Shown here piece by piece: positions 17,431 to 30,409 of a stretch of DNA of 40,418 bases (positions are counted from its first letter, which is position 1; each line of letters starts with the position of its first letter). This DNA is from Armatimonadota bacterium (lineage in GTDB: Bacteria; Armatimonadota; UBA5829; DTJY01). The notes under the pieces are model-generated. The model was not told the DNA's origin. It did not search any database and saw only the letters and a program-made list of their open reading frames with translations. The translations under genes were made by a program, and so were the position numbers. The stretch spans positions 1 through 40,418 of the forward strand of contig JANYKG010000152.1 in assembly GCA_025358205.1 (NCBI GenBank), read 5' to 3'.

Positions 17431-17443
17431 GGAGGAAATGATT

Positions 17444-18061
17444 ATGAAAGTCGCATTGTGCTCGTTGCTTCTGTTGATATGCATATTACAACCTGCATCA
17501 GCTTCAGTCGCCGGGGTATCTGGGTGGGGGTGTTCAGGGACCCTCCGCATGGGTTTGTACACCCGAACTGATGCTACGGATTCACTCGACGGATACGATC
17601 TGCAATCAGGGCCAATCAGTGGGTGGCTCGCCGGCTCTTATAGAATCAGCGGCCAGGATGGGTGGACCGGTGTCACAGGTTTCTATAGTCGCGATGTGCG
17701 GGCGCCGCTGTTGCCTGGAGAAACAAAGACTTGGATGGTGTACGTCTGGGCTGTTCCAGGCAGTTCTGCGCAGGACTTCGGCTCTGAATGGGGTTGGGCG
17801 GTGTCATCCCGTGACCAGTCTGTTGAAGCTAAGCTGGAGTATATTCAAAAGCCGTCTGGAGTTATCGGCGGCCCCTCGCTAGGGACGATATGGACTACCC
17901 CTCCTACCACGCTGATCCTCCCATATTACTCAACATCGAATGGATTGACTGGATATGGGTTTAGGTATACTCTGACAGCCGTCCCCGAGCCGTCCTCGCT
18001 CATCGCCCTGGGTGCGCTGGTGGCGCCGCTCTTCGCACTCAGGCGGCACAGAAGATATTAG
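17444..18061 (+). CDS. PEP-CTERM sorting-domain protein
   Basis: 205 aa. The ATG at 17444 has GGAGG 8 bases upstream; an ATG at 17438 is too close to it. A signal peptide (~1-20, ending QPASA) precedes a beta-rich, glycine-, serine- and tryptophan-rich body. The C-terminus is a textbook PEP-CTERM signal: VPEPSSLIALGALVAPLF followed by the basic RRHRRY. It marks export and cleavage/anchoring by an exosortase, usually in organisms that make exopolysaccharide. No exosortase gene is in the window. It is probably co-transcribed with the frameshifted propeller gene. The function of the body is not recognised. Confidence 0.85.
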   Translation: MKVALCSLLLLICILQPASASVAGVSGWGCSGTLRMGLYTRTDATDSLDGYDLQSGPISGWLAGSYRISGQDGWTGVTGFYSRDVRAPLLPGETKTWMVYVWAVPGSSAQDFGSEWGWAVSSRDQSVEAKLEYIQKPSGVIGGPSLGTIWTTPPTTLILPYYSTSNGLTGYGFRYTLTAVPEPSSLIALGALVAPLFALRRHRRY

Positions 18062-27998: not shown

Positions 27999-28733
27999 TT
28001 AGCTTCTGCGTCTGCGGGCCGCGAAGCCAATCAGGCCCATCAGACCTGCGCCCATGGCCATCAAACTGGACGGCTCAGGAACGGCGGACTGAACGAGTTC
28101 CATCTGATAAGCATCAGACCACACATTAGCAACCGTGTTTGCCTGCAACTGCCTGAACGGCAGTTCCAGGGAGAATGTTGCCGGGTTCGTAATAGTCCAC
28201 GTAGTGCCATTTGCGTACAGAGGATCTGTGAGACCCTGGTTGTTCAACATTTTCAGGGTGTACGTGACGGGAACCATCGTCCCAACAGCGTTCGGCAACT
28301 GTGTTGGCCACGTGGTGGTTACTGTTGTGTAGAGCTTGATGATACCGGGAGTAACCCCAGCGTCACCCGCCTGCGCTCCAACATACATGCTCCAGATCTT
28401 CTGTCCACCCGGGTAGACAGAGTTCATCGGACTCAGGGTTGTCTTGTAGTCCTTGTTCAGTGCAAGTGTGGAATCACTCACCCTGAACGCAACGAATCGT
28501 GCGCCGGCAGCAGAGGTAAATGCCATACCATTGCCGTCGAAGTTATCCTTACCGTCCTTAACAACCGTCCCGGTCTTCGTTCCAAACTGTGCGGCCGCCA
28601 AGCCCAAGCTTACGGCGCCATTATCGGCAGTGAACGAAACTGTCCACGCAGGCTGATCCGCTGGCTCAGCTGCATATGCCATTGCTGACACGAGAACTAC
28701 TAACAGAAACACGATTCCCAAAACTTTCTTCAA
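27999..28733 (-). CDS. PEP-CTERM sorting-domain protein under a sigma-54 promoter
   Basis: 244 aa. The start is taken as TTG at 28733 because GGAGGTGA (28747-28740) is a perfect Shine-Dalgarno about 9 bases before it, while the in-frame ATG at 28748 overlaps that site and cannot use it. A signal peptide (KKVLGIVFLLVVLVSAMAYA) precedes a beta-rich domain of ~190 residues without known motifs. The C-terminus is VPEPSSLMAMGAGLMGLIGF then ARRRRS, a full PEP-CTERM signal for exosortase processing. The sigma-54-type promoter at 28836-28851 fits known links between PEP-CTERM genes, RpoN and the PrsK/PrsR regulators. Monocistronic. Confidence 0.88.
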   Translation of the reverse strand: MKKVLGIVFLLVVLVSAMAYAAEPADQPAWTVSFTADNGAVSLGLAAAQFGTKTGTVVKDGKDNFDGNGMAFTSAAGARFVAFRVSDSTLALNKDYKTTLSPMNSVYPGGQKIWSMYVGAQAGDAGVTPGIIKLYTTVTTTWPTQLPNAVGTMVPVTYTLKMLNNQGLTDPLYANGTTWTITNPATFSLELPFRQLQANTVANVWSDAYQMELVQSAVPEPSSLMAMGAGLMGLIGFAARRRRS

Positions 28734-28835
28734 AGCAGTCACCTCCATAAATATTTAAGACACTGCACAGGCAGATCATTGTGCCGTCTTCACTGTGACC
28801 CCGATTTCCGCATACTCGAAGTCACAATACCTACA

Positions 28836-28851
28836 TGCAAGAATCGTGCCA
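28836..28851 (-). promoter_or_regulatory. Sigma-54 (RpoN) -24/-12 promoter
   Basis: On the minus strand the sequence is TGGCACGATTCTTGCA: GG at -24 and GC at -12 with exactly 10 bases between them, a near-perfect match to the sigma-54 consensus. Transcription would start near 28824, about 90 bases before the TTG start. Upstream activator sites cannot be identified by eye. Confidence 0.8.
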
Positions 28852-28950
28852 TTCGCTCAATATAGCCAAAGGTTTTTGCAGAACTGGTAATTTAGCCGGA
28901 CGACTACTCTCTATTGAAGGCCAAATGAGCTTGAATATGCACCGATTCTC

Positions 28951-28980
28951 TTGACACCGAACTCGCGTTCATAATATACT
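28951..28980 (+). promoter_or_regulatory. Sigma-70-type promoter toward the citrate/homocitrate synthase gene
   Basis: TTGACA (28951-28956), an 18-base spacer and TATACT (28975-28980). It lies about 190 bases before the ATG at 29180, leaving a long leader in which I recognise no riboswitch or T-box. The 446-base divergent gap between the starts at 28733 and 29180 holds this promoter, the sigma-54 promoter on the other strand, and no gene I can support. Confidence 0.6.
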
Positions 28981-29179
28981 GACGTGCGGATGATGGTAAT
29001 CCATCTTCCGTGTTCGGTGTCTGTCCAAGTATTCGTAAGAATCCTCGGACTTTCTTGTTTAAGTGTATACCCAATAGTGCCTTTTGTCAAGCTGGTATTT
29101 CTACTGTTTGAGATCAGGACTTGAGGTGACAACCACCCCAGCGCCGTGCAGGGGTGTATTTCGCGAGAGGAGCCTTTCC

Positions 29180-30409
29180 ATGCCCAAGGTTTACATTGTT
29201 GACGTTACAAACAGAGACGGGGTGCAGACTTCCCGAATAGGCGCGTCGAAACTCCAGAAGACTCTTTTCAACGTACTGCTGAACGAGATGGGGATATTCC
29301 AGAGCGAGTTCGGCTTCCCGTTCGTCCCGCACGAAGCGCACTATCTGAACACCAATCTGGAGATGTGGGAGAAGGGCATTCTGCAGCCTCTGCGTCTGGT
29401 CGGCTGGTGTCGCGGCGTGGTGGGCGACGTGAAGAAGAGCCTGGAACTCACGAAGGTGAAGATGCTCAACCTGTCCATCTCCACCTCAGATCAGATGATA
29501 GTCAATAAGTTCCGCGGCAAGTTGGACCGCGAGAGCATAATCGCCGAGATGGAAGATGCCGTCACCTATGCCAAGCAGAACGGCGTAAAGGTGGTGGGAG
29601 TGAACGCCGAGGACGCGTCGAGAACGGAGCTTGACTACCTGGTCAGGTTTGCGATGGCGGCGAAGGCGGTCGGCGCAGACAGTATCCGATACTGCGATAC
29701 CCTGGGCTATGACGATCCGGTTACCATCTACCGCCGCATCAACTTCCTGGCCAAGGAAGTGCAGTTGCCCATCGAGCTTCACTGTCACAACGACCTGGGC
29801 CTTGCAGTGGCTAACTCCATCGAAGGCGCGCGCGGTGCGCTTGAGGCCGGTGTGGACGCATATATCAACACCTGCATCAATGGAGTCGGCGAGCGCGCCG
29901 GCAACGCTGACCTGGTTTCGTGCATCCTGGCGCTCAGGCACTCAAGCGGTTTCAAGGACCTGCACATGCTGGACGAGCGTGTGGACTTGACGAAGGCATA
30001 TCGCTTGGCCAAGTACGCATCGTACGTGTTCGATATTCCTCTGCCCCTGAACCAGCCGGGTACGGGGTCGAACGCCTTTGCGCATGAGTCCGGCATCCAC
30101 GCGGACGGCGCGCTGAAGGATCGCAGGAACTACGAGCTGTACGACTATGAAGACCTGGGTCGCGGCGAAGACGAGATCACGCACACCGGTCGCATCATCA
30201 CAACCGGTGCGTACGGCGGCATCAAGGGTTTCCTGAAGGTGTACAACGACCTCGGCATTACGTTCGAGAGTCATGAGAGGGCGCAGAGGATTCTGGACTT
30301 GGTTCAGTATGCCGACCTGCACACCAGCAAGCCGCTGCATGAGATCGAGCTGCGCTTCCTGGCGGCTTATCCTGACGAGTGTGCTAACATCATGACCGTG
30401 CAGCCGTAG
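29180..30409 (+). CDS. Homocitrate/2-isopropylmalate synthase family enzyme, possible Re-citrate synthase
   Basis: 409 aa. GAGAGGAG precedes the ATG. A DRE-TIM metallolyase barrel condenses acetyl-CoA with a 2-oxo acid: VTNRDGVQTSRI at the start (Arg-Asp of the active site), LNLSISTSDQM near 95, ELHCHNDLGLAVANS near 198 (metal HxH) and INGVGERAGNADLV near 235. It lacks the long C-terminal leucine-regulatory domain of LeuA. The family includes homocitrate synthase, NifV, citramalate synthase and the Re-face citrate synthases of anaerobes. With an aconitase and an isocitrate dehydrogenase downstream, Re-citrate synthase is an attractive reading: oxaloacetate to citrate toward 2-oxoglutarate. 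Homocitrate synthesis is the main alternative; sequence alone cannot decide. Confidence 0.75.
   Translation: MPKVYIVDVTNRDGVQTSRIGASKLQKTLFNVLLNEMGIFQSEFGFPFVPHEAHYLNTNLEMWEKGILQPLRLVGWCRGVVGDVKKSLELTKVKMLNLSISTSDQMIVNKFRGKLDRESIIAEMEDAVTYAKQNGVKVVGVNAEDASRTELDYLVRFAMAAKAVGADSIRYCDTLGYDDPVTIYRRINFLAKEVQLPIELHCHNDLGLAVANSIEGARGALEAGVDAYINTCINGVGERAGNADLVSCILALRHSSGFKDLHMLDERVDLTKAYRLAKYASYVFDIPLPLNQPGTGSNAFAHESGIHADGALKDRRNYELYDYEDLGRGEDEITHTGRIITTGAYGGIKGFLKVYNDLGITFESHERAQRILDLVQYADLHTSKPLHEIELRFLAAYPDECANIMTVQP

Follow-up and report, generated by a model that had tools for sequence, protein, structure and literature searches.

A predicted sigma-54 regulon of PEP-CTERM surface-protein genes in Armatimonadota, with a probable activator that lacks a DNA-binding domain

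The window (the whole stretch of 40,418 nucleotides that was analysed, contig C192 in the 97%-complete draft genome, 4.08 Mb in size, of an Armatimonadota bacterium) carries on its minus strand a PEP-CTERM gene preceded by the sequence TGGCACGATTCTTGCA. This raises the question of whether the sequence is a sigma-54 promoter and, if so, which regulators would act on it. Sigma-54 control of PEP-CTERM genes, with an enhancer-binding activator, is known from the Proteobacteria: Haft et al. (2006; PMC1569441) reported that 99 of 167 proteobacterial PEP-CTERM genes are preceded by a sigma-54 motif together with an enhancer motif upstream of it, introduced the names PrsK, PrsR and PrsT, and found the motifs, among the species discussed, to be common to Proteobacteria only, leaving regulation elsewhere open. 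For pepA of Aquincola, RpoN dependence and a mapped start have been shown (PMC9850573). A 2025 cross-phylum survey of sigma-54 mentions neither Armatimonadota nor PEP-CTERM (PMC12316311), and our literature searches found no work on how PEP-CTERM genes or sigma-54 are regulated in Armatimonadota.

The minus-strand promoter with exact -24/-12 spacing that an initial annotation of this DNA described is real, and its coordinates are right (Table 1). It matches TGGCACGN4TTGCW without mismatch, with a gap of 10 bases between GG and GC, and is the sole such match within the window, where base counting (11 fixed bases plus one W, both strands) gives a chance expectation of about 0.01. The site ends 102 bp before the TTG start codon of a gene whose product scores 29.7 bits against PF07589 (cut-off 20.7) and 23.9 against TIGR02595 (cut-off 16). 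Counting against a dedicated sigma-54 regulon, the reading developed below, is the sigma-70-like site further upstream of this gene, which agrees with the consensus at 10 of 12 bases. Transcription mainly from that site (29090..29062), with the sigma-54 site a relic or a chance match, is nonetheless very improbable in our judgement: other PEP-CTERM genes, in the host genome and in relatives, are preceded by the identical 16-mer, where the reversed control pattern gives none. A divergent gene that starts near 29180 shares the intergenic region and has a strong sigma-70-like sequence of its own (TTGACA-18-TATACT, 28951-28980, plus strand, 11 of 12 bases). At the second PEP-CTERM gene of the window, neither a sigma-54 site nor the dyad described below was found. 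A sigma-70 promoter had been proposed for this gene, with its start given as 17444, and could not be demonstrated; the best site matches at 9 of 12 bases, with about 0.8 expected there by chance, and the upstream ORF ends only 58 bp ahead of the start of the gene.

Table 1. Coordinates of promoter, gene, dyad and candidate small-RNA features. Positions are those of the window unless another contig (C) or locus (L) is named.
Feature	Position	Strand	Remarks
Sigma-54 promoter, class A, TGGCACGATTCTTGCA	28836..28851	-	-24 GG at 28850-28849, -12 GC at 28838-28837
Predicted transcription start, near 28825	28824..28826	-	About 12 nt past the -12 GC; inferred from general sigma-54 promoter geometry
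Ribosome-binding site GGAGGTG	28740..28746	-	Read from sequence
PEP-CTERM gene, 244 aa, TTG start at 28733, signal peptide MKKVLGIVFLLVVLVSAMAYA	27999..28733	-	
PEP-CTERM sorting tail VPEPSSLMAMGAGLMGLIGFAARRRR	28008..28085	-	PF07589 match
Sigma-70-like TTGACA-17-TACACT, possible second promoter of the window gene	29062..29090	-	10/12 bases
Dyad, moderate copy, CAGAACTGGTAATTTA on the plus strand	28879..28894	.	Motif-model scan, score 14.9
Second PEP-CTERM gene of the window	17438..18061	+	
Dyad AAAAACTGGTATTATTACCAGTTTTT	Upstream of C173:28491, C92:69016, C85:7215, C65:11479, C150:7527, C76:35746, C62:4519, C40:15461, C124:2872; many class A sites		
Candidate small RNAs, host genome (G000)	C49:45630 and C49:45783 (tandem; C49:45630-45860 = L090:7631-7876), C96:5178 (L112), C110:13904 (L115)		
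Candidate small-RNA loci, relatives	L211, L213, L227, L231, L234, L242, L243, L263, L264		
Candidate small-RNA loci, relatives (continued)	L417, L418, L421, L424, L426, L443, L444, L445		

Genome-wide, the wide pattern TGGCACGN4TTGCW has 18 exact matches in the host genome, and a narrower form, TGGCACGNNNCTTGCW, has 13, as against none for its reversed control. Matches to the wide pattern with one mismatch are mostly chance (51 vs 35 in the reversed control), and the position of a site therefore matters. When up to two mismatches are allowed, a site precedes 15 of the 43 PEP-CTERM ORFs counted in the fetched stretches (44 were listed, one of which was judged spurious), in most cases 44-120 bp ahead of the start codon, that of the C118 gene being uncertain. 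No sigma-54 site with convincing match and spacing was found before the remaining 28. Among exact sites in relatives, 44 of 102 precede a PEP-CTERM ORF, vs 6.7% for positions drawn at random within the stretches concerned. The earlier suggestion that the window gene belongs to a regulated matrix regulon is thus supported in the form of a sigma-54 regulon of PEP-CTERM genes.

Two forms of the promoter can be told apart. Class A, TGGCACG(A/G)(A/T)TCTTGCA, is the majority form at PEP-CTERM sites, and its spacer is conserved in addition to its boxes; class B, TGGCACGNNAATTGCT, has four exact sites, all on contig C12 in a flagellar cluster. The two differ consistently beside the -12 box (CTTGCA vs AATTGCT).

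The proteins behind these promoters show some regularities of their own. In the host genome the tails of sigma-54-driven PEP-CTERM genes tend to the GxGLxGLxG..RRR type, and those of the other PEP-CTERM genes to ALGALVAPLLALRRR or ALASLMTGFAAVVRRR, even though a single exosortase was found (C127:40363-41127). Large secreted proteins at C62:6724 and C164:16405-22350 (the latter equivalent to L088:405-6350) end in variants of RRSIRTRSN..VV; one has a class A promoter and two lie just ahead of the kinase and activator genes, and they are possibly a second class of surface protein. In relatives, class A sites also lie ahead of proteins with a PDAS-type tail, for example IPDASTWMLFLSGMPAVLMLRRKR (L245 and L250 in G030, L433 in G044), a possible variant of the PEP-CTERM signal, and ahead of a gene resembling rhomboid-type membrane proteases (MIPLRDENPTRTTPV...; L227 and L233 in G017 and G024).

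The host genome contains rpoN, which the initial annotation had linked to PEP-CTERM systems, in two copies (C40 and C12), and both proteins have core-binding and DNA-binding domains. There are only two true sigma-54 activators, four other family matches being weak AAA+ relatives. One, which contains a Fis-type HTH (HTH_8), is encoded in the flagellar cluster on C12 together with a kinase and an rpoN gene of its own. The other, on C164, is a protein of 397 aa in which a receiver is joined to an AAA+ domain whose GAFTGA loop is intact; it ends there, without HTH_8, and so has the domain arrangement by which group 5 activators are recognised, a receiver and a sigma-54 AAA+ domain with no DNA-binding domain. 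Its gene comes after that of a 1041-aa GAF/PAS histidine kinase; behind it lie an inverted repeat, a site resembling class A (TGGCACGGATTGTGCA) and a gene for a REC-PilZ protein. Because the C164 activator ends after the AAA+ domain, it would be unable to bind an enhancer itself, and promoter choice would have to rest on the promoter sequence, on the sigma-54 paralogue or on some other protein.

The truncated form is widespread. Among the best 30 matches to the C164 activator, the host's own included, 27 stop after the AAA+ domain, and the other three are longer, with HTH-like sequence in the added part. Of 61 genomes, 39 contain exact class A sites, while the control pattern gives hardly any match; the sites average 4.1 in the 28 genomes with the HTH-less activator vs 0.67 in the other 33, some of which may have orthologues whose ends could not be checked; the p-value of 3e-6 for this comparison is only indicative, because the genomes are related. 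Three genomes with the HTH-less activator (G018, G022 and G047) have no exact class A site, which counts against the dedicated regulon. In one relative (G021) there are two exosortases, and no activator, rpoN or class A site was detected there, so exosortase sorting does not require the class A regulon. The RpoN proteins fall into two groups, with identities of 44-62% within the class for the C40 type and of 31-36% to C40 for the C12 type. In our reading of the co-occurrence tables, C40-type RpoN accompanies the HTH-less activator, and C12-type RpoN lies within 8 kb of a flagellar-type activator in 13 of 16 genomes. Genomes with a single RpoN and the HTH-less activator only (G003, G005, G007, G009, G024 and G060) have 4-20 exact class A sites.

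On this evidence we consider it likely that TGGCACGATTCTTGCA is the sigma-54 promoter of a dedicated surface-protein regulon, served by an HTH-less activator and a C40-type RpoN. Sigma-54 paralogues can overlap in other bacteria, and the presence of core-binding and DNA-binding domains in both RpoN proteins would allow both of them, with both activators, to serve both promoter classes as one pool, classes A and B then differing by descent and not by function. Such pooling appears unlikely, given the consistent difference next to the -12 box and the co-occurrence of each RpoN lineage with one of the activators, in matching pairs.

No upstream element was expected with an HTH-less activator, an expectation that motif searches overturned. 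With a home-made motif finder, compared with few shuffles, the regions upstream of class A sites in the host genome yielded AAAAaCaGGTATTTtT (293 bits vs 217 +/- 6.5 in shuffles), and the 28 PEP-CTERM genes with no sigma-54 site yielded GGTAnnATTACCAGTTTTTC (364 vs 250 +/- 6.6), which is clear in about 10 of those genes, with TTGACA downstream of it in several. The idealised element is the palindrome AAAAACTGGTATTATTACCAGTTTTT; a weaker, possibly related motif is found in G003. The copy in the window helped to build the motif model and is therefore weak evidence by itself. As sigma-54-free PEP-CTERM genes have the same dyad upstream, we reject it as a sigma-54-specific enhancer. Since the dyad serves both promoter types, it is probably bound by a further DNA-binding regulator, distinct from the sigma-54 activator. 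Some DNA-binding protein would thus act at class A promoters, so that activation without any enhancer is not established.

The dyad also bears on whether this is a classical PrsK/PrsR regulon, as the initial annotation had suggested, in which an HTH-bearing activator on an upstream enhancer loops to the sigma-54 holoenzyme. The logic and target class are those described by Haft et al. (PMC1569441) and a conserved upstream element exists, yet that element is also common to sigma-54-free PEP-CTERM genes. In genome searches the best scores were 420 and 405 bits for the PrsR model TIGR02915 (cut-off 502.6) and 98 bits for the PrsK model TIGR02916 (cut-off 300). No gene exceeds either curated cut-off, and orthology of the host kinase and activator genes with PrsK and PrsR is rejected on that basis. 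The Fis-type HTH required of PrsR is absent from the C164 activator, the likely activator here, and present in the C12 activator, the sole HTH-bearing one, which is located in the flagellar cluster; G003 and G024, whose only activator is the HTH-less one, nevertheless have 20 and 5 exact sites of class A. A PrsK/PrsR regulon is therefore improbable. As a positive control, the enhancer motif was sought in Proteobacteria (Cognatazoarcus and Aquincola), where the clean sigma-54 sites recovered were too few for the control to be used.

The dedicated regulon may extend beyond proteins. Behind some class A sites there is no immediate ORF; a conserved stretch, roughly GGAAACnAAACATCTTTTTCTCCTTC, lies about 10-40 nt past the -12 box and is followed by an intrinsic terminator. 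The candidate small RNAs would be 60-130 nt long and lie behind about one in five class A promoters; in relatives, 20 of 102 exact sites precede one, and tandem arrays comprise three in G003 and two in G017. Allowing up to one mismatch gives 127 class A sites, and 29 of them have a CTCCTTC-type (anti-Shine-Dalgarno) core. Terminators occur at 24 of these 29 sites vs 7 of the other 98 (p = 4.5e-15), the core, like the class A core and the dyad, having been chosen post hoc, with the relatives and the sigma-54-free set as partial independent checks. Its pairing partner would be GAAGGAG ribosome sites, and it is mostly, though not always, unpaired in folds. The C49 RNA folds 6 sd below shuffles, a stability that the terminator may explain. 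Rfam gave no match at the candidate places, and RNAalifold found no common pair on their alignment, for which reason our model of the family is sequence-only; it also retrieves non-seed members at 18-28 bits, vs a best hit of 15.7 bits in 621 kb of loci mostly from other phyla. A rough search for targets gave results hardly better than those of shuffled cores and did not discriminate. We conclude that class A promoters apparently drive a small-RNA family. Among the genes downstream of these RNAs are a bioY-type-like gene in three genomes that belong to one family (L211, L445 and L446 in G003, G002 and G004), a phosphofructokinase-like gene (L443 and L444 in G014 and G015) and, behind the tandem pair at L227, the rhomboid-type-like gene.

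From the observed promoters and the genes behind them, the missing HTH and the co-occurrence, a working scheme can be proposed. The multi-GAF/PAS histidine kinase on C164 probably phosphorylates the adjoining response regulator in a phosphorelay, the signal input of which is conjectural. This regulator, an HTH-less NtrC-type AAA+ activator, would then open closed complexes of RNA polymerase and the C40-type sigma-54 at class A promoters, an assignment of activator, RpoN and promoter that we infer from co-occurrence. The output would comprise the PEP-CTERM subset, the REC-PilZ protein encoded beside the activator (of c-di-GMP-binding type, a presumed link to that messenger) and the candidate small RNAs. 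A flagellar circuit would run separately, using a different RpoN, the HTH-bearing activator and TGGCACGNNAATTGCT promoters, and the regulator at the dyad would act upstream of many promoters of PEP-CTERM genes, irrespective of their sigma factor. In its fullest form, the dedicated sigma-54 and the non-DNA-binding activator would jointly induce exosortase-sorted proteins, the PilZ protein and anti-Shine-Dalgarno small RNAs that repress mRNAs, with the dyad regulator uniting the sigma-54 and sigma-70 PEP-CTERM genes; we put this forward tentatively, at somewhat less than an even chance. A distant phylum would thus use the same regulatory logic with a different activator, and the small RNAs would bring a post-transcriptional arm to a surface-protein regulon. 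Since one genome holds two sigma-54 circuits with distinguishable promoters, the source of promoter choice is testable.

Judged by its sequences, the Armatimonadota case would resemble the proteobacterial PrsK/PrsR/RpoN regulon in its working, while its genes score below the PrsK and PrsR cut-offs. In both, some of the PEP-CTERM genes have a -24/-12 site at a comparable distance ahead of them, the units are single genes, and a kinase adjoins a sigma-54 response regulator. They differ in the phylum, in the lack of a DNA-binding domain in the activator described here, in the GAF/PAS sensor domains of the kinase, in the REC-PilZ gene beside the activator, in the small RNAs among the apparent targets and in the presence of the upstream dyad at sigma-54-free genes as well. 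Sigma-54 activators without an HTH are a small group (group 5), which includes CtcC of Chlamydia and FlgR of Helicobacter (PMC7175178; PMC3162934; PMC7482065). Like these, the C164 activator has a receiver and an AAA+ domain and nothing beyond them; unlike them, it would act on PEP-CTERM genes and not on late or flagellar genes, its host genome also encodes an HTH-bearing activator and another RpoN, and the HTH-less form is phylum-wide. Small RNAs dependent on sigma-54 are found under NtrC-type regulators elsewhere, as with Qrr and LuxO in Vibrio and CrcZ and CbrB in Pseudomonas. Although the candidates described here lack an Rfam match and carry a conserved CTCCTTC anti-Shine-Dalgarno core, they share with Qrr and CrcZ a short RNA directly behind a -24/-12 promoter, an intrinsic terminator and, often, several copies.
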